Assembly: GCA_022457155.1 (NCBI GenBank)
Contig: JAJGOT010000131.1
Location: forward strand, 124,001-188,000
Length of the DNA: 64,000 bases
From: Cladopsammia gracilis
Taxonomy: Eukaryota > Cnidaria > Anthozoa > Scleractinia > Dendrophylliidae
Direction: 5' to 3'
Part shown: piece by piece, positions 4,427 to 63,613 of the stretch
Layout of the letters: the number at the start of each line of letters is the position of its first letter
Numbering within the stretch: position 1 is the first letter of the stretch
The notes under the pieces: generated by a model
The model's database searches: none
What the model was told of the DNA's origin: nothing
The model's input: the letters and a program-made list of their open reading frames with translations, nothing else
Made by a program: the position numbers and the translations under genes

Positions 4427-4433
<7 letters not shown>

Positions 4434-4474: not shown

Positions 4475-4477
<3 letters not shown>

Positions 4478-18960: not shown

Positions 18961-20307
18961 GCGATGTTCATTATTCCTATCTTCTTATATCGGGTAAGCT
19001 TGATACCAATGAGTAAAGATTTTGTGAAACAAGTGAATACAATTATCTTCGATTTCATATGGAAGGGAAAGGATAAAGTTAAGCGCTCTGCTCTTGTTAG
19101 TGAAATCGAAGATGGAGGACTTAAAGCGCCACATTTAGAGTCTATTATTGAAGCGCAAAGAATACTCTGTTGCAAGAAATTGGCTAATGATCAGCCAAGC
19201 AGTTGGAAAACAATTTTTCTGCATTATCTCAAACCTGTTGGAGGAAAATTGATCTTATGTTGCAACTTTGAATTGCAGAAATTGTCGATAAAGCTGCCGA
19301 AATTTTATGAAGAATGCTTTAAAAGTTTTGCAAAATGCTCCGCGGCAAGTTGGGGCAGTGTACAGGATTTAAATGGGAACGATCTTACAAATATGGTGCT
19401 TTGGAATAACAAATTTATTTGTATTGGAGGCAAGTCTGTGTATTTTAAAAACCTTGCAGAGAAAGGAATAATTAGAATTAAGCATTTAATATCCGATAAC
19501 AATGAGCTTCTTATTAAAAACAATCGCAGGTTGAGGGAGCTGAATATTTCGCCAGTAGACGCCTTTAGTCTTATGACTTTAATTGATGCTCTACCAGCTG
19601 AATGGCGCGAGGCTCTAAGGGCAAGTTCCTATAGGGAAGATGAACCTTTTAATATACATGATGAGATCAAATTAAAATTAAATAATCAAACTGCGCCAAT
19701 CAAAACAGCGGTTTCCAAGACTATCTATAGGGAGCTTCGAAATAAAATCATTACTCCACCAACTGCTCAGCAGAACTTTAATGCAAAATTTGTTGACGAT
19801 GCCTTAGAATGGGAAGAGATTTACAGTTTGCCTTTTCGTGTCACCTTAGATACAAAGTCGCGTGAATTTCAGTATAAATTGCTCAACAGATGTCTTGTAA
19901 CAAATGCTTTTTTATTTAAAGTTGGAGTTGCACCATCTCCGGCATGCTCTTTTTGTGGAGAAATAGACGAGTCCCTTGAGCACCTAATTACATCTTGTCA
20001 TTACACTAAGAATTTCTGGGCTGAAGTTATAAAATGGCTTACCAAACAAGGAATTAAAATTGCTAATTTCTCTGACAGGGATATAATGTTTGGTATTATA
20101 AGGTGCGACGATGAATTGTTCGTAAATCATGTTCTGTTAGTTGCTAAACAATACTTATATTATTGTAGGCAAAAAAGATCTGTGCCTTCAATTAGAGTTT
20201 TTAATTTAAAAATTAAAATGATCTATCAACTTGAAACAATAATTGCCAAATCTAATAATAAAATTTCAGCTCATAACAAAAAGTGGGGCAAATATATAAC
20301 ACAATAA
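18961..20307 (+). pseudogene. LINE ORF2 C-terminal half after deletion
   Basis: In a different frame from the preceding part, homology resumes at IIPIFLYRVSLIPMSK, which lies beyond the RT active site, then NTIIFDFIWKGKDKVKRSAL, GGLKAPHLESIIEAQRI, and a zinc-binding zf-RVT-like CSFCGEIDESLEHLITSC near the end. It stops at 20307. The missing block would hold RT motifs up to the catalytic YADD. The junction near 18945-18965 and the frame change make a working ORF2 protein impossible. Confidence 0.85.
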
Positions 20308-39224: not shown

Positions 39225-41716
39225 TCAAGTAGTTGTGGATTGGTGATACAGTAATAAAAATTGTCTGACTTGCATATAAATGTTTATTCCTTGATTTTCG
39301 TCTTGCTCCATGGGATTGAATGTTTCTTGCATAACCGTCAAAACATGCGCTGGAAAATCAACACTAATGGGATCAACATTTACCCCTGTTGAATTATTCG
39401 ATGGGTCATGGGCTGGAGCAGCAGGGTCATCACCGTACATGACAAGCTCCTCGGGCATTGTATTATTTATAATACCCCTGACACCAACATAACTGGACGA
39501 ATGTTGCCGAAGAATACCAGAGATCCATAACTGATGTGGACTCATGTTGTGTTCTGTTGAAAGACCATGGTTATTGTAGGTTGACACAAACTGTCCAAGG
39601 GCATGATTGATTCTTGGTAAATAAACATAATGCAACGAGAAAAGATCAATGTCACTGGTACGGTTCAGCACTCCAATATTTTCCAAGTGGAAAAAAATGT
39701 TGCGAAAAATAAATAGAATACAGTGGACAACTTCCCGCCATAATCTTTCAATTCTGGTGTTGTGAACACTTGGTCCTTTCAGAAAGCTACCACGGTCAGC
39801 CCCTCGGTGGTGTACCATAAGTTCACCAACTGCAATATTCTCTCCACCGTCATCAGCACGTACTCGAGAAGGCAAACCCCACCTGTTGATTGCCTCACGG
39901 AATAGAGCAAGAACAGTTGAAGCTCTGTTATTGTTGTTGCACTGCAGGTAAACAATAACTCGTGAGTAGCCATCAATTGCACCATGAACAACAAATCTCC
40001 AGTGACGCAACTTCAAGTTACTGTCTATGTGCCATAAGAAATTAGGGTGTGGCACTCTGTAAGGTCTTCTAGGAATTTGCTGTGCCCAGCGACAAGCTCT
40101 ACTAATTGGATCAATGGCAATCAATGCATCACGTACTCTCCATCGTTGAACAAATATTCCACGCTGTCTCAGGGCCCCTTGCATGTAACGCTCTCCACAG
40201 CGAGGCATCCTCAATAACTCCTGCTGCACCTGATTCTGCAAGTCTGAGTCAGGAATTGGAGAATAGGACAAAAAAGCTTCAGGTATCTGCAGAGCATTTA
40301 CACGTCTATGAATTGTCCATCTTGACACACCCATAATGTTTGCAATGGCAGTCCAAGAGAAATAGTATGAACGCAAAAGCATTAACTGTTCACTGGAAAT
40401 GTCATATGATGGCCGTCCAACTGAACCTGTATGTAAGACAGGAGCCCTATAGGAACTGGGAGTGAACACAGGCAACTCCCTGAATAAATTTTCAATAGCC
40501 TGAAGTTCTGCCACAAGATCCTGAAGCTGACTCACTTCACTTCTTGTAAATTGAGGTAACCTCTGAACAAATACCAATACTTGATGTGTGTGCCGGATAG
40601 CACCAGATAACCTGACAAGAAGGAAGTCAGCAGTCTCTCGACTAAGAGGAGAATGACGGCAGTTGTCTACTTCACGAAGTAATGATATAATGCTTGCTAC
40701 AAATTGCTGCAAGTTCTGGTTGGCTTCAATTCTGTATAAATTTGACAGAAAAAATATGTTATTGAAGGTCAATATGAATGCAACATCGAGCAGAAAGCAC
40801 TTTGATGGTGTCAATTACATGTACCATTGCTCAAAAGTAGACTTACAACTAAAACTTAAACATTTTGGAGTTCAAAGATCTCAACAAAATTAAGGTACAT
40901 ACTAATTAACAAGAATAATTATTAACCAGTCAATATAGTTCTGGTGCCCACTCAATGGGGGTAAAAACAATAGGAAAACCCATACCAGGGCCGCCAAAAA
41001 GGGGCCATGACCGCTCAATAGGTGTAGAAGAATAGAAGTTTTGTTTACAGTATTATAGTGACAATAAATTTAGAATTTAATAACTGGCCGCTTAAAATGG
41101 GGTAGCTGCTTAATAGGGGTGACTGTATACAGAAAGCAATTGATCACATTAAATTTACACATTAACCATTCTTATGAAAAGTCAGTTCTAGTCAGAATAA
41201 AGCTTACACAGTTAGGTAAGCTTAAATATCTTTTGGCCTTTAAACTAGGATCAATAGATTTTTAAAAACTACCTAAGATGAAAAGAAAAAAATATCAGTA
41301 GGGTTGCAGCTCTTCGAAACCTCTATTTTCAAAAATATAATTGATAATATCAAAAACCTTGTTTCTTCATTGATGAAATCTTAGTTTTGTATGTGAACAT
41401 GACTATAAAACAGAGTATAAAATTTAGCTTTCGAAACCGTCAATGTTCTCAACTTTGTGCTCATTGATACGACGTTTATGCTACATGTATATATGTAAAC
41501 TTCTTATTCTTAACCAAATAGAAGATGGTTTTACCATGTTCTCTACGAAAATAATACACCAGTTTTTTATCAAACATCAGGCATGCATTATTTTCTTAAA
41601 GAACATGGAAAACCATCTTTTCTATTTATTAAATAGAAATACATAAGACAACCTTACCTTTGATTCACATGGATGAAAAGGGACAAACTTAAAAACAACA
41701 TCTTCACTGTACCCAT
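39225..41716 (-). CDS. DDE integrase-core protein (transposon-derived)
   Basis: Two exons: 41658-41716 (ATG to a GTAAGG donor) and 39225-40731 (after TTTATACAG), joining in frame for 521 aa. Exon 1 gives a hydrophobic MGTVKMLFLSLSLFIHVNQ. A helix-turn-helix follows at about residues 143-166 (WTAIANIMGVSRWTIHRR), then an integrase core: LWHIDSNLKL (D256), RVRADDGGEN (D313) and RIERLWREV (E348), with about 34 residues between the last two, plus the HHRGADRGSFL loop. This matches a group of integrase-core proteins abundant in corals and fish, related to IS3/IS481-type transposases. Flanking TIRs were not found, so it may be a transposon remnant or a domesticated gene. The frame is intact. Confidence 0.82.
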
Positions 41717-43430: not shown

Positions 43431-44280
43431 TCTGCTTTTGAGACGTCAATATAAAGTCGTATTGTCGTCTCAAAAACCAGCCTGTGATTGGTTAAAAATT
43501 TCCCGCGGCAATTTAATGGGTTCCTTGCGTAGAAAACCAAAATTTAAAATTATCTTCAAAGAAAGGCAAAAAGTGTTGATTATTTTGTCAAGTTTGGCAG
43601 ATAAACAACGCTGTATTCAATGCAACGACCCTTTCTATCGAAAGTTAACGATAAGATGAGTTTAAAAGCTGCTTTTGTTCGTTTGAGCGGTTTGTTTACA
43701 TTGAGTTATGCTGTGCGCACGCTGTCACGCCATCAAAACTTGAAAAAAGGTTTGGGCTAAAACCTCGACAGGTTTGCGTTATTTACTCATTTTTTCGACG
43801 TTTGTAACTTTGAAAAACTTCGAAAAGATGTTCTATCAAATTTGTTCGATTTCAATGAGCAATTTATAGCGTGAAAAGTCCGTGTTTTTAAAACTTTTTT
43901 GCTAAACAAAAACATGATAACGCGTACAAAACATCGTGTACGTCGAGGTTTAAAAGCTTAAAGTGAGAAATATACATAAATAAAGCCTTTAAAGAAACAC
44001 AGCCAAGCTTCAAAAAAAAGCGGATCCAAAATGCTTCCAGATGATTGGTTACTTTCTATAAATATGGGACCAATGAAAATACATTATTTTCGATCCCCAT
44101 CAATCACCCGTATACATATATAAAGGTCACCCGTCACAAATTCTACAGGAACGGAATTGAGAATTTACTCTACCTTCCTGCCACATATTACTGTTGTCAG
44201 TAAATAGCAACTGAAGAGATTCGTACAGAATCGAAACCGCCGGTCTTGCTGGAGACCATACAGTCAATTATCAAACACCA

Positions 44281-44496
44281 TTGATAATGTCAACAGACAA
44301 CAAAGAACTACAAGAACTAGAAAAATACCTCACGCCGTCCGCGGGAGAGGGAGACTCAGATATATTCGAGGTGCCAAAAACACCAGAAGGAATACCAGAT
44401 AAAGACGAGCTGGAACTTAATACAAAATCAGCCTCTGCTGAGGAACATTTTCAAAAATCCGCCAATTATATCCTACAAAAGAGGAAAATCTCTTAA
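44281..44496 (+). CDS. Small acidic ORF, copy 1 (71 aa)
   Basis: Starts M-I-M-S-T-D-N-K-E and is acidic and hydrophilic (ELEKYLTPSAGEGDSDIF; TPEGIPDKDELELN), ending at a stop. It sits about 160 bp downstream of TATATAAAGG, so transcription is plausible. No family recognised. It could be the truncated start of a larger gene, since the hydrophilic sequence ends in a basic KRKIS. Confidence 0.35.
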   Translation: MIMSTDNKELQELEKYLTPSAGEGDSDIFEVPKTPEGIPDKDELELNTKSASAEEHFQKSANYILQKRKIS

Positions 44497-45123
44497 AGAC
44501 AAGCTCGTAAGGGCAAAAATATAAGGCAGCGTTCATAAAAAATGTAAACAACATCACGCAGTGAGTCGCGCAGGCCTGTCATTTTATTATTATCACTGTT
44601 GAACTTATCCAGACAGGCCCCGTCACTGACGTGAAATCACACAGTTAAAAACATGAACTTTACAAGGTTCTAACATGCAACGCAACATAATTTCGACATC
44701 GCACGCTACACAAGCAAATCGAAACCCTTTTTTTCAAAAAGGCAAAGGAAGAATAACACAGCGTGTAAATATCACCGTATATTACCACAGGTTTAAAAGC
44801 TTAAAGTGAGAAATATACATAAATAAAGCCTTTAAAGAAACACAGCCAAGCTTCAAAAAAAAGCGGATCCAAAATGCTTCCAGATGATTGGTTACTTTCT
44901 ATAAATATGGGACCAATGAAAATACATTATTTTCGATCCCCATCAATCACCCGTATACATATATAAAGGTCACCCGTCACAAATTCTACAGGAACGGAAT
45001 TGAGAATTTACTCTACCTTCCTGCCACATATTACTGTTGTCAGTAAATAGCAACTGAAGAGATTCGTACAGAATCGAAACCGCCGGTCTTGCTGGAGACC
45101 ATACAGTCAATTATCAAACACCA

Positions 45124-45339
45124 TTGATAATGTCAACAGACAACAAAGAACTACAAGAACTAGAAAAATACCTCACGCCGTCCGCGGGAGAGGGAGACTC
45201 AGATATATTCGAGGTGCCAAAAACACCAGAAGGAATACCAGATAAAGACGAGCTGGAACTTAATACAAAATCAGCCTCTGCTGAGGAACATTTTCAAAAA
45301 TCCGCCAATTATATCCTACAAAAGAGGAAAATCTCTTAA
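45124..45339 (+). CDS. Small acidic ORF, copy 2 (71 aa)
   Basis: Identical in translation to the ORF at 44281-44496, 843 bp away, with the same upstream TATA box. No family recognised. Confidence 0.35.
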   Translation: MIMSTDNKELQELEKYLTPSAGEGDSDIFEVPKTPEGIPDKDELELNTKSASAEEHFQKSANYILQKRKIS

Positions 45340-45439
45340 AGACAAGCTCGTAAGGGCAAAAATATAAGGCAGCGTTCATAAAAAATGTAAACAACATCAC
45401 GCAGTGAGTCGCGCAGGCCTGTCATTTTATTATTATCAC

Positions 45440-46933
45440 AGTTCATTTTGGTTTTGCAAACCATTGGGGGCTGGTTTACTTATATTCCAGTTTGACTCCC
45501 ACACCCTTGGTCGCATTTTTTTGACTCGCCTCAGTTCGCAGAAAAACTCAGTGATCGTTCGCCCCCAAAAATATGCCTGCAGCCTAAAATGACCATAATG
45601 TAATAATTTCTAATGGTATGTGGAGCAACTAAATTCAAAACGAGCGGACCTACATGATTAGTACAAAACGTTATTAAATAGGATTTTTCATTTACTTTAC
45701 AACAAAGTCTACATATTAAAGTTCTTGTTTAAATGTCTATGGCTCTGAAAAGCATGTTATGCATTAAGAAGCACAATATATACATAAAAATTGATCAAAA
45801 GCTTATTTAAAATAGTTACATGTAAGATATCAATAATTGATATCTTGATCAAAGATGATCATGGTAGTTATTTTCTATTCTAAACTGTAAAATGCCAGCA
45901 TATTGTAAAATAGTATGGAAATGATAGCACCTTTAGTTAAAATGGCAAAATGAATGCCAGACACATTTGCCCTGCAAAAGACATAGTGGGAATCTGATGC
46001 CACCAATTTTTAATGACACTCCAATATAAAAAAAGAACAGTTTGTCTTCCTTTTCCTTTGTCATTTTTTCCATTAAACAAATAGGGCTAAGACTGACTTT
46101 TGAACTTAATACTAGACTTAAATGGCTATATTGAACTCCACTTTAGCTGAAATAACTATTTTAAAAGTTATTATTTAAATAATTTGATTTCACTAAAAAA
46201 AAAATTTCATTTCACAACTATTCATTCCATCAGGTTGGTACTATTTGGGACATACAACCTTATTCACATTTTGATCACAGTATCCAGTAATCCACAGACT
46301 GTGACTACTGACTGTTTCTAGGACTGACAAAGGCAAAGAAGACATCAACATGGCCTCTTTAAAGGTCCATCTTGACCCAAAATGCTGTGCGTGCCGTGAT
46401 CACTTTCTGTGCTGAATTTTGTGAAACCCGAAATTGATGCTTGAATGTGTGCAACCAATCAGATCACGGGAATGAACAATGGAGCATTTCAAAACAAAAA
46501 CAAACGACCGCAACATCTTTTGGGTGCAGGTGGGCTTTTAATAAGAGTACAAAAGAGTCTATAAAAACAAATTTTATGTATCACTAATAATGACAGCAAA
46601 ATACTGTATGGCATGACATCCTTGCATAAGTTTAATTTAGCAAATGGGCAAACTTCTGCCTTCTCTCTAGACGATCTCTGTCTTTTTTTGGTGATTTGCA
46701 ACAACAACAAAAAAACAAACAAAAAAAATTTCTTAATTTACTAGAACTGTTACCAAATAAAATAACAATTGTAGCAGAAACTGGTCCTTCAGGTTGGGGG
46801 TTTTCGAGTGGGGGCTTATCACTTCACATTGTAAAAAAAATCAGAATCAAATCAGAATCGAACCCTATTCCCAAACATAGGAAAACAGAACTGACGATGA
46901 TGATGAGTAAGGTTTAACTTAAGATTAACTTTA
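45440..46933. other. No gene seen
   Basis: AT-rich DNA with short meaningless frames on both strands. No repeat family recognised. Confidence 0.4.
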
Positions 46934-47942: not shown

Positions 47943-48400
47943 TTAATTTAGTCTCAAGTTACGTGACGTCATACCTAACTGTAGTTAGTGTTTTTGGTCA
48001 ACTTTGCGGTCACACCATGTAGTTAAACTACATATAGCTCTAATTAGCGTACGGATGACTTCAGAATTAAAAGAGGTTCGTGACGGCCCTTATTGTTGAT
48101 CTGTGAAATGTCAACATGGTTGACCAACGTAAAGTGTGTCTAGTTTTTCTTCTTATTTATTTTTTTTGTGCGGCAAACCATCAGAGAAAAATGAGAAATA
48201 AGCTGAGAATTTTAATAGATGCTTGATAGTTGCATGTAATTTTTTGTTTGTTGTTTTTGGTTTCCCCTTCGCTTCACGCTTGGTTTCTTATTTGGCATAT
48301 TTATATATGTTCATCTCGCACGTACATAAAGAATTGTCACATTCTGATTGGTTGTTTGTTTGTAAACTTAAGACTAACCCATGAACCCTGCTTGGGCATA
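47943..48400. other. Insertion-site flank, left of CACTA element
   Basis: No gene. Contains AACTGTAGTTAG and GCGGTCACA motifs that recur on the far side of the CACTA element (63611-63760), suggesting that the element landed in a pre-existing repeat. The last three bases, ATA, are the target duplication. Confidence 0.45.
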
Positions 48401-48710
48401 CACTACCAGAGTGAACAATGTGAAAAATATGTGAAGATCATGTGAAATACATGTGAAAATTTTTACCCTGTGAAAAATGCAGTGAAAGAAAATATGTGAA
48501 ATTTTAGACTGTGAAAAAACATGTGAAAACCTTATGTAAATTTCACATGCTGTTTCACAGGTATGGACTATGTGAAATGTCATGTGAAAACCTTTATCCA
48601 TCTCACATTGAGTTTCACATGTATGTGAAGTAAAAAGACCCTGTGAAATATTATGTGAATTGAAAGTTGGGTGACAATACTGACATGTGAAAAATGAAGT
48701 TAACTAAACT
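48401..48710 (+). repeat. Left TIR and subterminal TGTGAAA cluster
   Basis: A terminal repeat of about 38 bp merges into some 17 copies of TGTGAA or its inverse (TTCACA) within 310 bp, in both orientations. In plant En/Spm, similar subterminal motifs are bound by TnpA; the same role here is inferred. Confidence 0.88.
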
Positions 48711-49787
48711 TTTTGATCATGATCAAGCTTTTATATAACCTTATTAGTTATGTACACTGCATGCTTATAATTAATATGTATAAATGCTATATTTAATACT
48801 GAATGTTCACTACTTGCACTTTGACCTTTTTTTGTAATGTGCATGCATGGGCATTTTCTTTTCTAGCATGCACACCACTGCTATACATGCATGTATATAC
48901 CATTATATATTTACATTGCTAGTGTTTATTTTACAGTACGTTTAATTCAGTTTACCCATGTGAATAAATTGTGGAGGCACCTCCACACACATACTATTAC
49001 ATTTTTCAGGCTTTCTTTTCAACTGCTAATTATTTTAAGTTGCTATATAACTTAGATCCCTTTCAATCTTTCCACCACTGCCTTCAGCCTATATGACAAG
49101 AAAACATTTGATCATGATCATGATGAGCAGTTCTGATTATTTTAAAGAAATTCAAAAGTTGCACTGAATAATGTACACTTCTCCATTTCTATATCCTTTG
49201 CTGAACTTTAAGAAAAATCCATCATTTCTGTATTTTAATTAACTCTGTACATTTAAACTTAACCATTATTCACTGCTCACCTGTCAAGCGAATGCGGTCA
49301 TATGTTAGAAAGTGCATGCATGAAACTGAAACACTTAAATATTATAGAAAACTATGTATAATCTGATTTCACTGAAAATCTCTAACAGAAGTCTGGAAGT
49401 TCTCTGGGTCATCTGGAGATACTTCATCTACATTATATCAGTTTCCTCTTAAGGTAATTGACTTTTCTGTGAACCATGCCAGAGTATGGTGAGAGATATA
49501 AACCTGTAGATTAACTGTTGGTCAACTTGTGTCAAGGGGGTCACCTACCCATTCCCCAAGCTAAGGGTGACTATGTTAATATGGCATGGGTTTGACTAAA
49601 TTGATCATGAGAGGAAGTTAATTAAGTTGAATGAATAAAATTATATGTTTTGATTTTCATTATTTAGTTCAACAATTATATATAATGTGAATAAAATGAT
49701 GATTTGTAAACAAGATACAACATTTCAAAAGGCAATTGAGGCCTGTATAAAACATGTGGCATAATTCCATGGCCACTAGCCATTTGC
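48711..49787. other. 3' side of transposase gene, no other gene
   Basis: AT-rich non-coding DNA within the CACTA element between the subterminal repeats and the transposase stop codon. Includes small ATGCATG and TGATCATGATCA palindromes. The 3' UTR of the transposase should lie here. Confidence 0.45.
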
Positions 49788-52700
49788 TTAAATGTTCAAA
49801 ATCCATAAAAGCGACTCATTCTCATCATCCACAGCTGTCACAAGTGGGAAAGAAAGGCAATTAAGTGCAACAGTCTTCATTTCAAATAATGTTGTGTCAA
49901 CATAGTACAGAAGGCTCTCAAGGTCTTGTTTGCATGATGTGTAAAGTTTCATGGTCACAAATTCACTCTCCTTGCCAGAAAGCTGATCATGCAATGTAAT
50001 GAAATGAATTATCCTTCCAATTTGTGCCTTGTCTCCACAATTGATATTCACTACCGAAGAGACAACAGCTCCAGAATCCAGTGTGAAGGATTTCAACACT
50101 GATGTCTTTCCATGCAGTTGCTTCTCCATGGAAAATGTTCGCTTAACATGTTGCTCGCTGTCGGTAGCCAAAGAAAAGGCACCACAGCCCACCAGGTCCT
50201 CTGTTTCTTGTTTAGTTAGTTGATACTGATTGGAAGGGGTTTCCTTGGTGTCTTTTTCAGTATCCAAATCCAAAGGCAAAAGGCGTCCTGAAAGTTTCAT
50301 GTACTGTACCCAATCAAATAGCTGATAAAAAAAAAAATAACATGATTAAATCATCTTAAAATTATCCACATTTGGTGCCTAATAACAAAAGAAAACTCTT
50401 AAAATATAAAACTTTGCTGGCTAAATATTGTAACATTAAGTTATTCTGCAACCAATATTTTAAACTAGTTAAATGAATTGAAACCATCATTTATTCGTCT
50501 CTTTTAGCTAGGGATGGACCATTATTTGTTTCTTCCATCCCTTTCCTTTTGTGAATTTTTATTAATAAATCAGGGCTGTCACTAAGATTTCAAGTTACCG
50601 GGTATATGCAATTAGTAAGCGGGGAATTCAACAGCTAGGAAGTTCTTTTGTTTTTTTTTTCTTTTGTTACCTATGCCAAAGTAGCCGGGCTCATGCTCAT
50701 AGAAGCCGGGGGAAATCCCTGGCCCTTGATGACAGCCCTGATAAATACATTACATGTGTGTATTTATTTGCAGCTTTAATTTGACTGTGTTTACAAACAT
50801 GAAGAAACCCTAAAAGCTTGTTTTTTAGAAGGAAGTGTTAATTAATGGAAAGGGGCACTCAGTCAAGGGAGGGGTCCGTTATGAACAAAATACAGTAAGC
50901 AATCTCACACGTATGTTATCCAAACTTATACATATATACTGAGTAAGCAGTTCTTTTGGACTCACTCTGTATGTTTCCATAACAGTAGCTTCTGGAAAAC
51001 GGCGATTTTTGACCCTCTGACAGATCCAACTGTTGAATCGTTCATAGCAATACATCCACCAACTGTGGACTGGGCCTTGTTGCTGAATCCCATTTACAGA
51101 ATGGCGCAAGATGTGAAGACTTATGGTCTAGACAAAGAATCATCATGTAATGTACAGTGTAAGTAACATGTGGTCTGAACATGCTCAGAGAAACATAGTT
51201 TCTGATATATAATATATAATCCACTGGCAACAGTACAGTGCCACATTGCAATATTCTCTGTTTAGTTTATTTTTCATGCACACCCGTTTGTAATTTAAAG
51301 CTTTTCTGGAGGACATGCATCTTATTCTTTATTACAAAAGGTACAGTAAACACCCACATAAAAGAACAAGTGGATTAAGAACCCTCAGGCTGACATTTGG
51401 TCAATAAACCACCATACGTATATAATATAAAACAGTTGGGCTGATCTAAGTATGTGTGCTGGACCATTACAAACACATGTTACAGTATTTCACAGAAGGG
51501 ATTGGAGTTGCTCGAGTACAGGCTGATTTTCTGGTTTCCTGTTATAAAACAGTGATTGCATAATATTTAACCTCTCAGTAATCTTGATCACTGTACCTCC
51601 ATTTCCAGAAACAATTTTAAGAACCTTTCAATAACATCTTTAGCCTGATTTCTCACTAAGCACCCAATATATTATAAGAAACGCATCAGCCTGCTGTACC
51701 CCCAAATCACTTGTTTTTTATGCAGGTGTTTACTGTATTAGAGAAACCAATAGCCATTAGTACAGTGTAAGTATTTCTCAAAAAAGTGGAAAGAGAGTAA
51801 TGTTGACTTTTGATTATGTAATGATTACTACTAAAGTACCTGAATACTGATAGGGAAGTCACGTTCTAACTGTGCACAGACTTCATTTACTTCCTTTTCC
51901 AAGGCAGGCAAGTCATGCAAGTCCTGAGTGTCACTACAAATCTTCTCAAGAACATCCAAGAGGCGGAAGAGTGAAATCCTTTGGTTTCGTCCAAGAAGGC
52001 CTCTTAAGCAGAACTTTAAGATCCCATCTGTGGCAAGCTATCACAATATGTTATAAAGAATAACAGTCAAACCCCACTTTTCAGCCTACTCTGTAGCTAC
52101 ATGTAGTAAGTAACCACCTTACTTTTCTAGTCAGAAAAGTTTTGTCACAACCTTTCTACCTCTTTTAAGCTGCCACAACCAGTTCTTAGGACTGGTGGTT
52201 TAAAAATTTATATAAAAAAACATTTTTCATCTCTGGAAGGAGATCAATGAACATAATTTCACACACACATGTATATTCAATATACATGTTCACAAACAGC
52301 TAACACACGTTAACAATATATATCATAAGTCAAAAGATGTAACTTATGTTTCATTCACTACATGTACAGTAGACAATCAAAACCTAAAAAAAACTGCAGC
52401 TCAGGACTGTGTAAATGTACACACAATGGCCACCTTCTATTTGGTAGATACTCAACATTACTTAGCACATATATACAGTACATATACATAATTATACAGT
52501 ACAAATTTTTTTGTACCTGTTTCCAGTCATGTGATTTGAGGTATGGTTTCTTACAGAAGAAAGCACATGGCTTCCAGCCATAACCTGAGGGCACGCACAC
52601 ATTTAGTGCACGCTTATCAGCCAGTTTGAGGTCAGCACTAGATAGACGGAATGGGGCAGCAGGTAGCATGATTTTCTCGCTCTTTGATTTGCCTCTTTTT

Positions 52701-55700
52701 CTCGCTGTTTGTTCTGTTTTGGTTTTGTCATCTAGAAAACAATAAAATAATGATAAAACAGATCAGACCATTAGAAAAACCTTAATGTTTTTTACTTTGC
52801 AGATGGATTTAAACATTCTGAATTGAGCCGTTTTGCTTTGTAAACTTCAGTGCAATACAAGAAAGCAAATACAGAAAGCAAATTTGTTGTGTGAATGTTT
52901 TCATGACTAAGTTGAAACCGAAAAAGGAAGTTGCCCACCCAAATACTGTTGTTCAATTGGAAACAACATCAGAGGTTTTTAAAGGTTTTTTGACTGGAAA
53001 GTCACCTTCAAATAATGTTAAACTGCAGTAGATCTTTGGATAAAGCAAAAATTTATTGTGTACTTTGTTCATTTCATGAATAAATTTGCAAGTTTTGATT
53101 AATGCGATCAGATGCAATTTGAGGTTCGTGATTATGAAAAATCACACCACTGGCTAGCCACTTTTGTGAGGTACATGTAACTGTATAAAAAATAATAATA
53201 ATGACTTAATTAAACCTAAATTGCAAAAAGGTACTGTTATAATAATGAGGTGGCTATATAAATGTGGCCACTGCAATAAAATGTAGAAACCTACTTTGTG
53301 TGGCCTTTCCAGCTGCTTCAGGCTCATCAACTTGCTTTTCCTGTAGCCAGCATCCTTGAAAACGACCCAACTCCTTTTCTGCCTTTCTAACTTTTATGCT
53401 ATCACCTTTACCAGTAATTAAGTCAAAAAATGTGCAGACAATATTTTTGAGGTCATGCATCAGGTCAGGAAAAGCTTGATTTGGCCTGTCATGGTTGGGC
53501 AACAACATGAAACAGTTGACACCTCGTGATCCAGTAGCTTTAGCGACATTACTGGCTTGAGCTTTGTTTTTTGCTCTGTTGTGGGCAACTGAATTCCAGA
53601 GAATATCATTGATATTGGCTTCTTCTGGTTTGGACCTTTTTTCTGGTTTGGAATCTGGAAAGGACTTTTTCTTTTTACGCAACGGGTGATCCTCACTAAG
53701 ATAGCGTCTGTTTTCCAGATAGACTACCTTGTCCAAAGAAGACACATATTGGCCTAGAAACAAACAAACAAAGGAACCTTTGTACACTGCATGCATTTAA
53801 TGACATTTTGGCCACAATATTCAATATTCATTTCATTCATTGGTTAGCTTTATATTAAGTACTGGGCTTGTCAGATCAAATTATGACTTACATTTGAGGA
53901 CTGAAAAAAATAATTACTCACCCCATAAAATTCCAAAAAACTGAGATGCAAAACTCCTTCCTCCCCTTTAATGAACTTAGCTATTCACTTCTGACATCCA
54001 TTTGAACACTAGAAATTGATTTGTGTTTCATATTGGCATGGTATATGTTATGTAGTTTGAATTTTACCAGTAACCTGATGTTCTGACAACACATAAAACC
54101 CAAATATCAGTCAAATGTAAAACTCTGTCCAAGAATTACCTTCCCCTAAAATTAATAAGTCCACCCAACATCTTCTCAACAGAAATAACCCAGAGCTGGT
54201 ATAGAATAATGTACCGGTCAAATCGAAGCATCAACTCCACCCCCGCCCCGCCCCACCCTCCCTTACGGCATACCTCGGGAAGGAAATTTGATAATCTAAG
54301 TTTTCCAGGGGACGGGGAATTTAATTGATTTCCTGTGACATGTCTCCCCTGCACGAGGCATGCTGGAAATCATGGCAGAGGTGGACATGGTGAAGTGCTG
54401 TATAGAAGATTTTAAAGGAAAAAATTGTGTGTACGTGGCTGAATGGCTGAAAAGCCAAAGCTTGCATAAGCTTTGCGCTGTATTTAAAGGCATTTGAAAT
54501 GTTTTTTTTATCATGCTTTGAATATGAATGTATTGTTGTGTTTACAATATTAAATAACAAAGGTCAATTACTTTAACCAGCTGCATGTATTTATGCATAT
54601 TTTAATACATGATTTCAGTGAAAAGGCATGAATGTCTTCAAATGTAGTAATTTAAGTAGGTGGAGTGATTTAATAGGAAGCTTTAGATGTTGCATGATTT
54701 GCGGTATAAAAGCTGTGCATTCAGAGTGTTGTATATGTTGTGGGTCAAAATTTTCCTTGGTTCAAATTTCATTTTCCTTTGTTTTTGGCTATGGTAATGT
54801 GTGATAATGAGTTTTAAACAAGTTTAAAGGAAAATGAAATTTGAACCAAGGAAAATTTTGACCCACAACACATACAACACACTGAATGCACAGCTTTTAT
54901 ACCGCAAATCATGCAACATCTACAGCTTCCTATTAAATCACTCCACCTACTTAAATTACTACATTTCATACATTCATGCAATGATTAAAAGCTTATAGAA
55001 TAATAAGTACAAAATTAAAAAATTATGATGTCTATTGAAACCTGTCTGCAGACTCGGCATCAGGAGCACTGGAAAGCTACATGGTTAAAGGAGTAATATG
55101 GTCACATATTACATGTACTTTCCCAGGGGTGGCGGCATTTGATCATCTAGATTGGAGCGTTTGAATGCCTTTTTGGATTGGGGAGGGTGGAATTTGAACA
55201 CTAATTTTCTACAAATTCAAATGCCCAAAGGGGTTGCCTGGGGAAGGGGGGGGGGGGGGGGCGTTGGGGGGGATGTTGAAGCTTTGATTTGACCGCTTCA
55301 CAAGTTTGCAATAGTATCATCCAGCTGTTATCATTTTGTCGAGGTATTCAGGGTTCTCCCTAAATTTTAGCTCAGCAGGTAAGGGATTTTTGCTAAGCGG
55401 TAAAGGGTAAACTGTGTGTCTTAAAAATTTTCCGGGGGCAAGTGGTTACGGGCGGTAATAAGTGCTGCTTCTTCAAACGGTAAATTTTACCGGTTACCGC
55501 CTGATAAGGAGAACCCTGGGTATTTAAAAAGTTAACCATTGATAAGATAATGAGTAATGATGGCAACATGGTTCACTTTTTAGTTTTATATTGATCAGGT
55601 TGCCTTACCTCTAATCTCACACCACATGCAACCTTGTAAGGCAGCCTGGGCTGCTGCTGTAAAAACCTTTCCCAGACCAGGATAGTCAAGAACATAACTC

Positions 55701-57106
55701 ATCAGGGCAACTCTGAATGTAAATGAAGCATTTCTGAAGGCATCAAAAAATGTAGCACCAGAAAGTTCCAGAAATTCATCTACAACTATTTCCAGGTATG
55801 GATCAAGGTGTTTTGGCTCTTGGCCATCTGTTTGAGCTGGAACTATACCAGCTAGCATGATATTCTCAAACAGATTGCGTACGTTCCTAGGTAGGTTAAG
55901 GAGAGTAAGCATAATTGGCCACATGGAGTAAGTGACCTTGTTGCTGCTAAACGGATTGACGCCATCAGTGGAAAGTTGTAACAGCATTCCTCGGAGATCG
56001 CCATTGCAGACTCCTTCCTCAGAGAAAGCTTGTTTCCAGGAAGGGGAATCATGAATGTCACGCATAATGGAAGGGTCTTCACACGCATCACGATCATCAG
56101 CATGGCTCTGAATGACTTCTGAAATACTTGCGCTTCCAAACATTCTTCTCCAACGAGGTCCAAGAGGAAAATAAAGGAACCTTCTTCTAGCACTCTTGTT
56201 GGCCCAATATCGATTGGATCCGCAAACAGGACACTTTTGCAGCTTTGAATAATCGTATCTACCAGTCTTGCGAAAGATGACACAGTCATTCGGACAAACA
56301 TGGTAACATATTGTCGGAAGCAGAAATGGCTTGACAAAGTTGTACGCTGCATCATACGACCCAGGAAGGTTATTTGGCTGTGGCAACAAACGCTTCTTCA
56401 ATCGCAAAAGATCTGATAAGGCACTTTTGCTTGTTGATGGGTGTTCAGTAAACCACATAAAATAACTCGCTAATGCTTGAAGAACAGTGACATCACTATT
56501 TTCAAAAAGAGGAATCTTGGCATTTTCGCTGTCATAAATGTCGTGTTCCATTTCAAGGTCACAGTCTTTGTAAGAGCTACTATCAGAAGGTAAAGATTCA
56601 TTACTCCCACTATCGTCGCTTAACGTGGCTAAATCATGTTCTATCGAGACTTCATTGTCACTTGATGACTGTGAACTCGTAATGTCGATTTCGTTTTGAA
56701 TTATTTCGCTATCACTTTGCTCACTGATACTTGTCGAATCTATCCGACGTCGTTTGAAATCTTTACCGCTGTTTTCCTCACATGAATCTGATAGTTCCGC
56801 AAATGAATCATGTCTGTAATCGTTCGACTTGGCCAACAATTCATCCTCGCTCCCGCTTTCAGATAACTGATTATCATGATCACCTGCATACTGGCCAAAC
56901 ACTTCTAGATGCCTCTTCACGATCTTACTTGATTGGGTGCATTCGGATTTGCAATTTTTACAAGGACAAAGATTGCCTTTGCTCCTAGTTCTCTTTGCCG
57001 TACTTGCTTTCTCGATTATGTGCTGCTCAGCGTATGGCATCTTCCTCGCTCGTCGTCGTTGAAAGTCGTCCGCGTTGCAACCTCGAATGCACGGTTGCAT
57101 GGTCAC
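49788..57106 (-). CDS. CACTA/EnSpm tnp2-type transposase, six exons
   Basis: Exons 57106-55609, 53753-53295, 52731-52517, 52037-51840, 51127-50966 and 50321-49788 have GT/AG borders and compatible phases (1,1,0,0,0), giving 1021 aa. Residues 47-75 form a Cys/His transposase-associated motif (CPCKNC...RHLEVFGQY). 80-195 is acidic and Ser-rich. 271-295 is a Cys cluster (CPNDC...CPVC). The tnp2 (Transposase_21) core follows: LQLSTDGVNPF (D381), MWPIMLTLLNLP, LDYPGLGK (D474), CMWC, then ENRRYLSEDHPLRKK in exon 2. Exons 4-5 match DUF4218: ILKFCLRGLLG, QGPVHSWWMYCYERFNSWIC. D381 and D474 are likely catalytic acids; the third was not fixed. It should bind and cut the CACTA ends. Lying in a complete element, it is probably the active enzyme. 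Confidence 0.9.
54625..54980. mobile_element. Foldback MITE in transposase intron 1
   Basis: About 356 bp, nearly perfectly palindromic, arms from GCATGAATGT through AATTTAAGTAGGTGGAGTG to a central TTTGGCTATGGTAATG loop. Its inner 138 bp (TGTTGTGGGTCAAAATTTTC to inverse) matches the separate element at 60419-60545. It lies wholly in the intron, so the transposase frame is unaffected. Confidence 0.85.
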
Positions 57107-57590
57107 TAGTTACATATTGACCTTTCGTTTACCATATACGGTGCGTACACAGGAAACCCGAGCGCTTTTTAATATGGTTGCGTATGTGCGAGTCTCGGGT
57201 TTCAAAACTTTTGGCGCATACATACATATCAAAACCGCACAGTCAAACCGACTTCATTCTGATGCTGATCCCTTGCAAAACGACGAAAGAAAGACACGAC
57301 CACAAAGGTATTTCGTTTTTAATTTTTTATTTCAAAATACATAAGTTTTTATAGCGATATTTAAAGCTTTAAAGCTCTGATCTAGCTATAAAGCGGTCGG
57401 GTTCCCTGAGGTGCATGGAATCGAGTCGGTGATCAGTTGTCGGTAAATTGACCCCACCTTTACCATATATGTAATACAATCAGAGCTTCAAAACGAACGG
57501 CGCCAAAAGTGTAGTGTTCGTGGTTCCTATCACTGATCTCTATATACTTCGATCTAAAAGAATCGTTTTCGTGGCTTTTTTCATTTTAAA
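57107..57590. promoter_or_regulatory. Divergent promoter between the two CACTA genes
   Basis: 484 bp separate the two start codons. Contains repeats of the form CCATATACGGTGCG / CCATATATG, and CCCGAGCG / CTCGGGTTTC, with more CpG than the introns around it. A shared bidirectional promoter is inferred from the layout. No TATA box was certain. Confidence 0.55.
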
Positions 57591-60386
57591 ATGGCAGATC
57601 ACGAGCAAGCCGTAATTTCCGAATTTCTCGCTTTGTTGAAAAGAAACCCAAATGCGTTGTCCAGCGTTTTGCAAACGACACAGGCAGCGATTACCTCCAA
57701 CGAGCAAACGGATGCGTCGAACCCATCAGCAAGCACGAGCTCTAGATCTAGTTTACCCACTTCTGACGAAGAGTCTCCACAGGACAGGGCAGTCGACATC
57801 GTTTCCACCGCTTATAGCGCAGAAGATCTGCTGGCAAAACGAGGGGCAAAGGGCAAAGGATCGAAAGCCCAACAAACATTTAGGGTAAGTCGAATCTTAT
57901 ATTTAGCCATTTTATAACAACTTGCATTGAGACAACCGAATAATTATCTCGAAAGATCTTGAAATGCATATATTTTTCTCGTGTTCTTTTACTCGTACAC
58001 ACCAGCTACACGTATTCTTTACACATAAATTATGTAATTAACTTACTCTCAGCTCTAGCGCGGATCAATCGATGACATGCATGCACTCCGATCGAATCGA
58101 TCTGCAAAATAACACTTTTTGGTCATGAATATGCATTCAATGTAATGGAGAAAATTGCTATTGTGGCTATTGTTGACTTAAAATTAAAGTGTGAGTGATT
58201 TGGCGGTGATACAGAGGTGCATGAAGCCAAATGACGCTTTTCTTCGTTCAACACACTAATCTCGATCGGTTGGCAGTTGCCTTCATGCGATCAGTATAAA
58301 CTTCCAACGATCCCACGCGCGCAAACTGATGCTCATTCATCAAATCTTCGGGTAAACACGCTCAAATGCATGGGAAGAAACGTCCAGCGTATTTAATGGC
58401 TTTTCCTTTTCTTTTCCCAACTTGGAATTAAAGCTGTTTGTTTCATTATTTAAGCTTATACGCTAAAATGTCGATCTGCTGCACGTTCGTTGGATTCGCG
58501 TTTTAAAAAGCGCGGGAATATTGAGTTAATAAGTACGCGTGCGTAGTAGAACTCGATCTAGAAAGCCTGTAAGCCTGCAGTACAGTGTGGGACAAGGTTT
58601 TGAGAAATAACATTTCGGGGGTAAGATTGTGCATGTGCATTGTGTGGCAGTTAGCAGCTAGGCTTCACAGGAAAAAAAGAAATCAAATTTTAACACTTTT
58701 AATGATATGGCTTCCCACTACCCGCTGAGTTCATCTTTGTCTACAATTGTTTACAGTTTGTGTTGAGGGAATCTGCAAAGAAATGTGGTCTATGGGAAAA
58801 ACCTCCTCTCATTCGAGAGATCAGCTGCAAAACCCTTGAAGTTTTTACTAAAAAGGTAAAGACAGGATTTCATGATAATCTTCACTTACATGTACCATAC
58901 TTAAAGGAACTGTGTCGTCACGGATTTTAGCAAAATTTTTAGAGACACGAAATACACAAGAAGGTACGGAATTTAAACTATAACGCTTGGGAGATTAGCT
59001 TATATTTGTTTATAATGATCGAAGCTATGCGTCACTTAGATCCACATAAGTAAGCTTATTTCTTCGCTATTATTAAGTTTCATAGCGAGTATTTTGCAAT
59101 TATAAACTCAGCCGTGACACAGTCCCTTTAATTATTTTAAACTATTCCTGTCATTTATGGTTTTATTATATTCCACCTTTAATTCTGAACCGATTGCTTA
59201 ACAGTTAACTTAATCTACATTCTAGTGTCGCAAAAAAACATAAAAGAAAAACGAGGCAATAGCTTTTATTGTTGCAATATGTACTTGTACTTTCTGGCTG
59301 TGGTCAACGTGCATACATTGTACAAGTTAAAATAATTAAAAAAAAAACTTTCAATATTTTCTACAAATTATAAGATAATTAGATAACAATGACTTTCATG
59401 TTTAAAGGTGATCAGTGCACTTCCCCAACTGGAAGGCCATGCCCACAACATCAGGAGGAGGCTTTCTGAAAGTTTGATTTACAGAAGAAATCAATTAAAA
59501 AATACAAAATTTTGGAAGCGTGCTTTAAAGGTAATATTTTAATTGTCATTTTATCCATGGAAAGATTAATCTGTACTTATTAGATGGAATGAAAAACAGT
59601 CTATTTATATAAGCTACATGTAGTACAGTACATACATCTAGTTATTGACACCCTTAATAATTCATCTGTTGACTCACAGTTGGTAGAATGTCACATGGTC
59701 AGTTAGACAATACTTGTGGATTTAAAAAGGGGTAAAGTCTGCATTCGGGCCTACTGGCCTATCAGTCTAGAGTTTATGACTTAGTTTCTGTTTCAGCATT
59801 AAATTCGCCATTACCCATTGATACACCCAAGTGGAGGTGAAGACAGAAACTATGAGAGTTATGTGGGTTGCCAGAGAATGCAATGGACACTCTCCTGTGC
59901 TCGAACCTGGACTGCTTGATCCGGAGTCCAGCATGCCAACAATTATGCCCCCTCCCCCTCCCCCCCCAGTGGATTAAACCTTTACCTTAATATTCTACTT
60001 AATAAGTGCGGTCTGGCTTCAAAAGAACTGTTATTTTTTTTTTAGATTGCAATCTCATAAAACCAGTTGGAAAATTAAATAATACACTACATACAGTGCA
60101 TGTAGGTTTAAATTAAATGTTAATATTATATTATTGGCTGTTCATGTCCAGGAGCAATGCAACCAATTGATCACCTTATATAATGTATTTGTAAGTGTAT
60201 TATGTATATTTGTTTGTGTTTGTATATACCTAATTCAATAAAGGTTGCTTTGGTCATTGGTAATTGGGCATTGGGAAGCTATTGTTTGGCGGTCACTCAA
60301 GCGAAGCATTGCATTGTGTTCTGTATGCTAAATGCTAATTCCCAATTACCAATGACCAACTGCCAAAGCAACCTTTATTGAATTAG

Positions 60387-60423
<37 letters not shown>

Positions 60424-62722
60424 GGTTCAATTTTATCCTTGGTTCAAATTTTATTTTCCTTTGTTTTTGGCTATGGTAATGTATAATAATGAGTTTTAAA
60501 CAAAGGAAAATAAAATTTGAACCAAGGATAAAATTGAACCACAACATATATATATATACATGTATATAAATAATGGAGTCGTCTTTTGTGACTTCCTTTT
60601 AGTTTTCCCTTTCATATTAGTGATTATGTCATTTTTCTTGTAGATGGATAAATATAAAGGTGAGGCCTGCCAGAGGCCTTTAGTTCCTGAAAAAAGCCAG
60701 GAAGTAAACACAACACTTCTCCTGGTGGAGAAGTCTCTGCAGGCTGTTAATGAAGATGTAGATCTAGATGAGGAGACAGGATTCTCCTTTTCTTCATCGT
60801 AAGTAAAAAAACAAATAAGTTAATATACAATGATCAGCTTTTTTTCATTGAATATCTCCATCCCAAATGTATAGCCTTTATCAGGGGCAGATCCAGTGGG
60901 GGATTGGGTGGCTGGCCACCACCCCCCCCCCCCCCCCCTTTAGATCATCTGCAGGGGTTTCATTAAGGGTGTGCCCCACCCCTTTCTGCCCTTCCAATCA
61001 TGTGCTCACTTGCTCAAACTCATTGCCCTATTGTTTAAAATCTTAATGGACCTTAATGAAATCCATGCATTGATTTTAACAGGTTTTTTTTAGTTGCAAC
61101 AATTTAAAAAAACAATTACTGACTTAGGCATATACCCGTAGCCACGCCATATAAAAAAATCCTGGATCTACCCCTGCTTTATGCATGTACATGTATGACC
61201 TCTTGGTTTCATGTTAAGTGTACAAATCATTATGCATGAGAGGGTAACAACTGAAAGCCACAAGTTAAATCCTGCCTAATATTTTCTTGTTACAGGGAGG
61301 AGCTGTTCGTAATGGATGGGACAAGAAAAATTGCACGAGCAACTTTTCTACGCACATCAAAAAAAGACAGTAAGTACAGCAGAAATGTAAACCTGCCTTA
61401 AGGCCATTTCATTAAAAATATCCAATGTACATGTATAACTTAAGTATTATAAATATTTTATAGCCAAAGATCTGTCCAGTATTTCTCCTAGTCACTGCCA
61501 CCTGTCTTGTGCACAGCAATTCCTTAATTAATGCATCATCAAAGGATTTCCTGTTATTGACAGTCCATATTTTAAGTTAAAAACATAGTCTTAAGAGTAG
61601 CTGTGTCTTGTGATGACCTTATCTACAATCATTGTAAGCCTGTTAAACTCCCTTGATCAGTTACCTACTCGCCAAAAGGTAAAACCACCTACTTAAAAAG
61701 TTTTATCATCCCAAGGCTTATAACCATGTTTTTATGATATATGTGTATGTACTAATCTCTGTTTTTTAATTGAAGGTGACTTTGCAAAGCTTGTTATGCA
61801 GTCAAACTTTCTGAAGACTAATGAGGAAAAAGACAAAATAAAGTTAACTGGACCTAACTCGGAACAATTTCTCCACAACATCAAGGTAACCACAGTTAGG
61901 TGTACTTAAAATCGAAATTAAAATAGCTAAAATTCCTTGAAAGAAACTAGTAGTGTCTAATTTTTTGTGCTATTTATTTAATTTAATTAGGTTGGTGAAA
62001 AATTTTATTGGCCTGAAAACCAGTTGGTTAGCAAGTCCAGTGCGCCCAAAGAGGGTAGGGGTCGAGAGGTGACAACGGTACAAGTGCCAGCAAAGTCTAC
62101 CTCTAGTTGCAACAAGAAAAGCAATCATGAAGGGGTGGAACTGGGCCATAGAAAGGCAAATTCTGCACCCAAGGAAAAATCTGTGCCCAATGAAAAATCT
62201 GTGCGCAAGGAAAAATCTGTGCCTAAGCAAACATCCGTGCCCAAGGGAAAATCCGTGCCCAAGGGAAAATCCGTGCCCAAGGAAAAATCTGTGCGCAAGG
62301 AAACATCTGTGAACAAGGAAACATCTGTGCCTATTGAAAAATCTGTGTGCAAGGAAAAATCTCTGCCTAAGCAAACATCTGTGCCCAAGAGAAAATCCAT
62401 ACCCAAGGAAAAATCCGTACCCAAGGAAACATCTGTGCACAAGGAAACATCTGTGAACAAGGAAACATCTGTGCCCATTGAAAAAAACGTGCCCAAAGAA
62501 CTGGAAACACCTGATCGGGATGTGCCCAAGGAAACAAATGTACCTAATTGCATGGAGAAAGGGGATGATCATGGGGTGTTGCATGTGCCAGAAAAACGCA
62601 AGTACAAGGGTTATGTATATGTACCTGTAGGCAATGATGACAAGAGCACCTGTACTCCTGAGCCAATACCAAACAAAAGGCGCAGGCTGCCAAAAGTCAG
62701 CTTGGACTTTGATTATATGTAA
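57591..62722 (+). CDS. CACTA accessory protein, seven exons, unknown family
   Basis: Exons 57591-57884, 58757-58855, 59408-59530, 60644-60798, 61296-61369, 61776-61885 and 61991-62722 have GT/AG borders and matching phases (0,0,0,2,1,0), giving 528 aa. Residues 1-98: helical MADHEQAVISEFLALLKRN, then Ser/Thr-rich. 99-172: basic, Trp-containing VLRESAKKCGLWEKPPLIRE and HNIRRRLSESLIYRRNQ...FWKRALK, a candidate DNA-binding region. 173-285: acidic then mixed. About 340-465: tandem basic hexapeptides of type K-E-K-S-V-P. C-terminus: NKRRRLPKVSLDFDYM. No known domain recognised. Its place opposite the transposase suggests a TnpA-like role in binding the TGTGAAA subterminal motifs; that is inference. 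Confidence 0.82.
58901..59131. mobile_element. TTAA MITE family 3, in accessory intron 2
   Basis: 231 bp bounded by TTAAAGGAACTGTGTC(GT)CACGG and the inverse CCGTGACACAGTCCCTTTAA. Ends and TTAA edges again suggest a piggyBac/Kolobok-type mobiliser. The intron's splice sites lie outside it. Confidence 0.8.
60228..60388. mobile_element. Foldback MITE in accessory intron 3
   Basis: 161 bp with inverted ends ACCTAATTCAATAAAGGTTG and inverse, arms continuing through CATTGGTAATTGGG. It lies next to an (AT)n tract at about 60391-60418. Confidence 0.78.
60419..60545. mobile_element. 127-bp foldback MITE in (TA)n
   Basis: TGTTGTGGTTCAATTTTATC to inverse, with the same TTTGGCTATGGTAATG loop as the inner part of 54625-54980, inserted in a TA-repeat tract. 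Two copies of one family therefore sit in the same transposon. Confidence 0.85.
62170..62520 (+). repeat. 18-nt coding minisatellite (K-E-K-S-V-P)
   Basis: About 20 tandem 18-bp units of the type AAGGAAAAATCTGTGCCC in the last exon, coding for six residues with Lys at position 1 and Ser-Val at 4-5. Larger sub-blocks (QTSVP...KETSVNKETSVPIEK) occur twice. The reading frame is kept throughout. Confidence 0.92.
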
Positions 62723-63324
62723 CTTAAAATTTATATCATTTTATCAATGACATTTTATAGCTAGCTACAAATATGTATGGAAAACTACTGATCAAAAATT
62801 TCAATAATTTTAAACAGATATAGATTTTGTAAATAAATAATTTTTTTACACATTGACGACATTTGCATTACATGTACTTTTATTATATTATATTTATCAT
62901 GATCATACATAATTATATATATATATATATATATGCTTGAATCAAATGTTGAACATTTTAATTTATGATCGGAAAACATTATTGACTTATATAAAAATGA
63001 TGCTTAAATTGTCAGGATTATTAATTAATTTATTCTTCAATTGCCCATTTCATCAAGATAAAAATTAAATATTTGCCATGGTTTCCTAAATCAATATTTA
63101 TGTTAATGATTTATTTTTTCTTTAGTGTATTTGTTTTAATTTGACTAGGCTGGCTTGAAGCTAAAAATAAATTGTTGTTTCAAAGGTTTCAAATTACCTG
63201 TTTTTGCTTTTAAAACGTTATGATATGCTGTGCATGCATGTATTTGAGATCAAGACAATAACTCATGATATGGCATGCTATACATTATAATGGAACAAAT
63301 TAACACATTTTGAAAAAGTCTGAA
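62723..63324. other. 3' UTR and spacer of accessory gene
   Basis: No further coding. AATAAA motifs near 62833 could serve as the polyadenylation signal. An (AT)n tract lies at 62917-62932. Confidence 0.5.
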
Positions 63325-63610
63325 TTTCACATACTTTTTCACAGTAAATTGGGTTATTGGGAGATTTCACATACTTTTTCACATCATGTCATTTAGCCTA
63401 GTCCCATGCAATGCATGATGTGAATTTGTTATTTCACATGACTATTTCACATCATCCCATGATGTGAAAAGGAGGACCCCATTTCACTTGGTTTTCACAT
63501 GGCTATTTCACATTATTTTTCACACATGTGGATGTGAAAAAGCAGATGAAATTTTCACACCTTTTTCACATTATCTTCACATGTTTTTCACATGGTTTAC
63601 TCCAGTAGTG
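63325..63610 (-). repeat. Right TIR and subterminal TTTCACA cluster
   Basis: Some 19 copies of TTTCACA or TGTGAA within about 285 bp, ending in the inverted terminal repeat CATGGTTTACTCCAGTAGTG. Mirrors the left end in density and content. Confidence 0.88.
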
Positions 63611-63613
63611 ATA

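Follow-up and report, generated by a model that had tools for sequence, protein, structure and literature searches.

The window analyzed here, i.e., the 64,000 bp from positions 124,001 to 188,000 of contig JAJGOT010000131.1 of the scleractinian Cladopsammia gracilis (assembly GCA_022457155.1), contains a 15,210-bp element (window positions 48401–63610, with CACTAC...GTAGTG ends) that is very probably a complete, probably autonomous and recently mobile CACTA/EnSpm DNA transposon in an animal. CACTA transposons are best known from plants. The element is a well-documented new member of this known class and not a new class, and its points of interest are that an animal element has CACTA ends together with 3-bp duplications, that recent mobility is supported by both families described below, and that its second protein belongs to a family in which every relative with an organism name is anthozoan.

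The left end of the element reads CACTACCAGAGTGAAC and the right end is its inverted counterpart GTTTACTCCAGTAGTG, with 33 of the 38 outermost bases being identical between both ends and the inverted match reaching 62 bp at 85% identity. Matching CACTA termini of ca. 38 bp had already been proposed in an initial annotation of the window, together with an ATA duplication and mirror-image subterminal motif clusters, and the latter two were recovered as well. Indeed, ATA can be read directly outside the element on both sides, and the motif TGTGAAA occurs 14 times in the left 400 bp (11 inward) and 14 times in the right 400 bp (12 inward), so that 23 of the 28 copies in the terminal 800 bp face inward, vs. 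2 copies in the 14,410-bp interior and 23 in the 48,790 bp of flank. When the window was scanned with a 26-base degenerate end pattern (up to three mismatches), only both element ends were retrieved, with no matches in 100 shuffles. A ATGTGAAA cluster near 36.3 kb was considered as a short derivative and rejected, the end pattern being absent there. Between the element ends lie two divergent predicted genes, i.e., tnp2 on the minus strand (six exons, 1019-residue product) and gene 2 on the plus strand (seven exons, 528-residue product), and the 490-bp gap between both start codons is presumed to be their common promoter region.

Further copies were searched for in the 878-Mb assembly (1469 contigs, referred to by C numbers), with all match counts being lower bounds. 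At up to three mismatches, the 47-base left end was found at a minimum of two places and the right end at a minimum of three (own copy included in both cases); the 26-base degenerate end was found at eight or more. Reversed-pattern controls of these searches gave no matches each time. A second full copy sharing these ends, which the initial annotation had proposed as a check, is present on C247; it measures 15,250 bp and is ca. 99.9% identical to the window copy (16 substitutions over an alignment of 15,201 bases, plus 11 insertions/deletions). Both tnp2 and gene 2 are open here and in this second copy, which supports the element being complete. The claim that nothing in it looked broken stands for both genes; two introns hold long inverted-repeat inserts. 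Both inserts are common to the window and C247 copies, with small indels between them, and therefore predate the last move.

An internally deleted derivative, likewise proposed as a check, was found on C1269, where 467 bp comprise both ends and pieces of both subterminal regions at 80–91% identity, flanked by TTA/TTA. C228 contains the right-hand 2.7 kb of the element at ca. 93% identity, with the gene 2 frame being lost in the repeat; the neighboring sequence is partly N, and 2.7 kb is the extent visible. Outside the repeat, this fragment differs from the window copy by 3 silent and 11 replacement codon changes, and therefore bears no sign of selection. Nor was a clear exon/intron difference found in this comparison, with divergence being 1.9–3.1% for exons 5, 6 and the non-repeat part of exon 7, 2.9–3.9% for introns, 2.3–2.6% for 3′ noncoding and subterminal sequence, and 14% for the repeat. 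Finally, C1281 carries a lone end-like stretch (75% identity over 131 bp).

A related family was encountered in the same genome. Searching the assembly with gene 2 gave 22 matches, of which 7 belong to the window copy, 7 to C247 and 3 to C228, the other 5 being single matches on C27, C1137, C434, C716 and C159 (49–53% identity). When 20 kb was examined around each of these five distant matches, a tnp2 ca. 61% identical to that of the window over residues 185–499 was found head-to-head with the gene 2 relative on C27, C1137, C434 and C716. Three of these related copies have both ends visible (12,596, 12,570 and 13,314 bp, each CACTAC...GTAGTG), and all three are flanked by exact 3-bp duplications (TAA/TAA, ACA/ACA and TAC/TAC); the fourth exceeds the stretch examined. 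Over 12.6 kb, the copies on C434 and C716 are separated by 10 mismatches, and no match at 1e-5 was found between their flanks. On C434, TGTGAAA occurs 29 times in the terminal 800 bp and once in the interior, and a long array of ca. 47-bp repeats (1–5937 of the stretch examined) abuts the gene 2 side end. Against the present reading, 14 of the 19 TGTGAAA copies on the gene 2 side of C434 point outward, unlike in the window element, and the two ends of the related family agree in only 25 of 38 bases. The fifth match (C159:1231164–1231298; 53% over 45 residues) may represent a shortened element or a separate gene.

These data also bear on whether the copies could have arisen by segmental duplication or recombination and not by transposition, with the element being an intact but immobile relic. 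Such an origin is quite improbable, even if some findings lean that way and weigh against recent mobility: the C247 copy is without a 3-bp duplication (left ...AGC, right TTT...), few copies of the element's own family were seen (at least two full copies, one fragment and one short derivative), and the C228 fragment has decayed. In contrast, homology stops at the element ends, the left limit of the alignment with C247 being 48401 and the right limit lying 6 bases beyond the element, and the flanks of the window copy (5.0 and 4.4 kb) gave no blastn match at 1e-3 against those of C247 (4.5 and 5.2 kb); C247 does, however, match a 190-bp repeat at another place in the window. Moreover, the 467-bp derivative has its own 3-bp duplication, the three related full copies have differing exact ones, and both genes have stayed open in both full copies.

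With regard to the genes, the initial annotation of 13 exons with GT/AG borders and compatible phases could be upheld at the level of gene prediction, all introns being GT-AG and all phases fitting, with one acceptor of the present tnp2 model placed by homology. Specifically, the start of tnp2 exon 6 was set to 50321 rather than 50303 (a shift of 18 nt) because relatives read ETYxxxDWxxxM there, and the C434 copy has an AG at the place matching this shifted acceptor. The joined tnp2 product (scanned against Pfam in its 1013-residue version, i.e., before this shift) matches Transposase_21 (E of 5e-34, 117.8 bits vs. a cut-off of 28.6, residues 345–549, profile positions 3–207 of 213) and DUF4218 (E of 4.9e-10, 39.7 bits vs. 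a cut-off of 27, residues 756–841); Transpos_assoc stayed under its cut-off (22.4 vs. 27.7 bits). The former two span the exon junctions at residues 497 and 788, respectively, and the separate exon 1 and exon 2 frames each contain one piece of Transposase_21.

EnSpm transposases have been described as having catalytic D, D, C(2)C, H(3-4)H and E residues, with the C/H motifs between the second D and the E (PMC12730594). The putative catalytic residues D379, D472, C491xxC494, H793xxxH797 and E817 of tnp2 fit this published pattern, with the assignment of residues to motifs being that of the present analysis. All 14 aligned rows have D379, D472, C491 and C494; the 12 rows extending far enough also have H793, H797 and E817. 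Both the domains above cut-off and the kept D-D-CxxC-HxxxH-E residues agree with the tnp2 transposase named in the initial annotation. A PDB sequence search with the tnp2 profile and a viral-contig scan with tnp2 gave no match.

That the 13 exons would be chance open frames with GT/AG borders is hardly credible. Although one tnp2 acceptor needed the 18-nt shift, the joined exons complete Transposase_21 and align along relatives, and in the 61%-identical tnp2 of the related family, breaks fall at all five of the window junctions. More precisely, the tnp2 matches of the related family are interrupted near residues 497, 650, 722, 788 and 842, corresponding to the five junctions in the window, and in C434 the borders that correspond to those of introns 1, 3, 4 and 5 show GT or AG, with only the donor of intron 2 being in view.

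Of the 8000 proteins scored in a database search with tnp2, 202 qualified as relatives at E ≤ 1e-3, and 120 of these were listed. Among the matches listed, the closest full-length named relatives are bivalve, and an Exaiptasia relative shows 54% identity across 62% of the 661 residues used as query. In a tree of 29 rows (28 of the 120 listed relatives plus the window protein, midpoint-rooted for drawing), 8 plant rows split from 21 others, among which 11 are named animals and 9 are without organism name. The window tnp2 groups with Exaiptasia P0020 and P0027 (support 100/100), and a Clytia row is long-branched. Mizuhopecten P0006, Solemya P0007, Exaiptasia P0020 and Montipora P0016, all four known here as protein models only, each have Transposase_21, with DUF4218 being listed in P0006 and P0007, and the window tnp2 falls among them. 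This tree, along with the anthozoan relatives of gene 2, supports the element being an animal one. The initial statement that such an animal copy is uncommon has to be tempered, since animal tnp2 relatives are numerous and at least one related family is present in the same genome.

Gene 2 has six database relatives (three from Montipora, one each from Acropora and Actinostola, and one without organism name), obtained as 5 matches of 744 scored and 5 of 8000 scored, one of the latter being new. The five named relatives are all Anthozoa (taxonomy checked: Montipora foliosa, Actinostola, Acropora cervicornis), and no plant protein is named among the five matches of each search. The Montipora relatives begin at the gene 2 Met and two of the three share its end; the Actinostola relative is a 118-column match within a protein having another N-terminal part. 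P0001 covers gene 2 exons 2–7 in a contig of 1470 bases, vs. 3.97 kb for the same exons here, so that introns must be absent from it or shorter, and this contig may be a transcript. The gene 2 protein is basic (charge of +27 overall, +12 in residues 99–172 and +20 in the tail). PDB relatives were absent at E ≤ 1 for gene 2 and at E ≤ 10 for its core (sequence/profile searches), and viral-contig scans with gene 2 and with the element ends gave no match. Drf_FH1, WDCP and KIAA1328 appeared as weak Pfam matches of gene 2 and P0001 and were rejected, being under cut-off.

Exons 2 and 3 of gene 2 consist of whole codons and are flanked by phase-0 introns. Several relatives are without such exons, and the seven-exon form may therefore not be the main product: exon 3 is absent from 4 of the 6 relatives (all three from Montipora, and the partial model from Acropora), the Acropora model is also without exon 2, and P0004 is without 17 residues of exon 5. 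The in-frame exons 2 and 3 missing from some relatives hint at cassette splicing, or else at annotation gaps.

It is highly unlikely that gene 2 would be a host gene trapped by the element and standing outside its machinery. While its database relatives are annotated as uncharacterized or hypothetical, and one of the five distant matches (C159) is without a tnp2 in the 20 kb examined, gene 2 lies between the element ends in both full copies, and the four other distant matches are head-to-head with tnp2, three of them between CACTA ends. A trapped host gene is strongly disfavored by the related family.

CACTA elements have been described with a two-ORF structure and a 3-bp duplication (PMC4158355), and with subterminal repeats (PMC8978399). 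The ends, the subterminal arrays, the transposase family and the 3-bp duplication (ATA at the window copy, TTA at the derivative, and TAA, ACA and TAC in the related family; none at C247) were all found here, in agreement with the CACTA/EnSpm identity initially assigned, as were dispersed copies and shortened derivatives (i.e., one full copy, one fragment and the 467-bp derivative). In like manner, Spm/En of maize and Tgmt* of soybean (with 13-bp CACTA ends) have been reported to combine CACTA ends, a 3-bp duplication, subterminal repeats and tnp2 with a second gene product that varies in sequence between elements (PMC2613891), and Chenopodium elements to combine Transposase_21 and DUF4218 (PMC8978399). 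Unlike plant Spm/En and Tgmt* as described there, the present element has two separate divergent genes instead of one alternatively spliced unit. It also differs from plant CACTA elements in that gene 2 is without a Pfam match above cut-off, that DUF4216 is not among the matches, and that its transposase falls outside the plant clade.

The animal TRC elements, which likewise belong to the CACTA superfamily, include SmTRC1 of Schistosoma and elements of Tribolium and Aedes (PMC1636069), and Spongebob/EnSpm-4N1_HM of Hydra (PMC4298943). The former three (PMC1636069) as well as the Hydra element (PMC4298943) are reported to have CCC ends and 2-bp duplications, vs. CACTAC and 3 bp here, and the reported lengths are 4.5 kb for SmTRC1, ca. 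5.2 kb for Tribolium, 9.2 kb for Aedes (PMC1636069) and 5.8 kb for Spongebob (PMC4298943), vs. 15.2 kb here. The window element thus has neither the ends nor the duplication of the TRC subgroup, and it further differs from the TRC elements as described by having its own second gene family. Some fungal EnSpm families also have CAC..GTG ends and 3-bp duplications, and those described carry TET/JBP genes (PMC12730594); the likeness drawn here is by description only. A zebrafish EnSpm family exists in the literature as well (PMC3485254). In titles and abstract openings of the open-licence literature, no complete cnidarian element with CACTA ends and a 3-bp duplication was recognized, which is no claim that none has been published. 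Repeat databases contain many animal EnSpm families.

In maize, the subterminal repeats are reported to be bound by TNPA, with TNPA and TNPD both being required, and second proteins of CACTA elements can share function without sequence similarity (PMC2613891). In the proposed mechanism, tnp2 would cut and join at the CACTA ends, insertion would proceed with a 3-bp stagger, and the basic protein of the spliced gene 2 would bind the TGTGAAA arrays and help in the assembly or regulation of the complex, in the manner of TNPA in Spm/En. A TNPA-like role in binding the end motifs is considered most likely for the gene 2 protein, with no sign of TNPA homology in its Pfam matches or in the five matches of each database search.

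Alternatively, gene 2 might encode an accessory of the element (e.g., an anti-silencing or splicing regulator) instead of an end-binding TNPA analogue, which is conceivable, albeit somewhat doubtful. The accessory reading is favored by the findings that gene 2 and its relatives match no Pfam family above cut-off, with no DNA-binding domain being recognized, and that exon 3, part of the basic stretch of residues 99–172, is absent from four of the six database relatives. On the other hand, the gene 2 protein is basic, with part of its charge in that same stretch and in the tail, and in the related family exon 3 is well conserved, at 62% across 42 residues. Moreover, TGTGAAA arrays are kept in both families although the other end sequence differs, which, if TNPA is taken as the model (PMC2613891), would require a protein dedicated to binding them.

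Taken more broadly, it is an even call whether both families represent a living animal CACTA lineage separate from TRC, marked by CACTA ends, TGTGAAA arrays and 3-bp duplications, comprising two families or more, using a cassette-spliced anthozoan end-binding protein as TNPA equivalent, and still transposing. Animal CACTA relatives are in any event not all CCC-ended. The two recently copied head-to-head families would provide a non-plant test bed for the pairing of a conserved transposase with a fast-changing partner, and offer candidate insertion markers for cnidarian genomes.

Table 1. Features of the element and its borders (window positions; P numbers denote database relatives).
Feature	Position	Strand	Basis or remark
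ATA, left copy of 3-bp target-site duplication	48398..48400	.	direct reading
Left terminal inverted repeat, CACTAC...	48401..48438	+	33/38 vs. right end; border of second-copy alignment
Left subterminal TGTGAAA array, mainly inward	48401..48692	+	11 forward, 3 reverse
tnp2 exon 6 (last)	49788..50321	-	acceptor set by homology ETYxxxDWxxxM; related-family AG at matching place
tnp2 exon 5; HxxxH, last E, end of DUF4218	50966..51127	-	
tnp2 exon 4; start of DUF4218	51840..52037	-	
tnp2 exon 3	52517..52731	-	
tnp2 exon 2; end of Transposase_21	53295..53753	-	
Long inverted-repeat (snapback) insert, tnp2 intron	54626..54979	.	89% arm identity; also in second copy
tnp2 exon 1; weak Transpos_assoc, most of Transposase_21, D379, D472, CxxC	55609..57100	-	
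490-bp gap separating both divergent start codons	57101..57590	.	exon coordinates
Gene 2 exon 1; start Met as in Montipora relatives	57591..57884	+	
Gene 2 exon 2, 99 nt, in-frame cassette; absent from partial Acropora model	58757..58855	+	
Gene 2 exon 3, 123 nt, in-frame cassette; in P0001 and P0005, absent from three Montipora and Acropora models	59408..59530	+	
Second inverted-repeat insert, related to that at 54626, gene 2 intron	60392..60572	.	also in second copy
Gene 2 exon 4	60644..60798	+	
Gene 2 exon 5	61296..61369	+	
Gene 2 exon 6	61776..61885	+	
Gene 2 exon 7; Lys-rich tail, conserved C-terminus	61991..62722	+	
18-bp tandem repeat within gene 2 exon 7, coding KSVPKE-like repeats	62153..62500	+	
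Right subterminal TGTGAAA array, mainly inward	63325..63610	-	12 inward, 2 outward
Right terminal inverted repeat	63573..63610	-	match to left end
ATA, right copy of 3-bp target-site duplication	63611..63613	.	direct reading

The remainder of the window holds several other repeats and mobile-element genes. Frames resembling LTR-type gag/pol pieces by eye are present at 345–1616 (minus strand), with the two frames tested giving no Pfam match, and LINE-type retroelement remains at 17406–20307 (plus strand) have endonuclease and reverse-transcriptase zinc-binding domains in overlapping frames. Another mobile-element gene, located at 39225–40814 (minus strand), is an open frame of 529 codons in which an integrase core domain was identified (rva_4, E of 6e-79), and a fragment at 15778–16176 (minus strand) has a weak GIY-YIG match under cut-off (E of 0.0047). 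The blocks at 6460–7594 and 9199–10452 form an inverted pair, ca. 92% similar to each other; both contain an open frame for one and the same LRR-like protein (scanned in one of them) and adjoin an 18-bp satellite, TTATCTCGAGATAATTTT. Finally, the direct repeats at 43946–44600 and 44789–45443 (655 bp, 99.8% identity, 188 bp apart) may have arisen by very recent tandem duplication, or may be the LTR pair of a small element.

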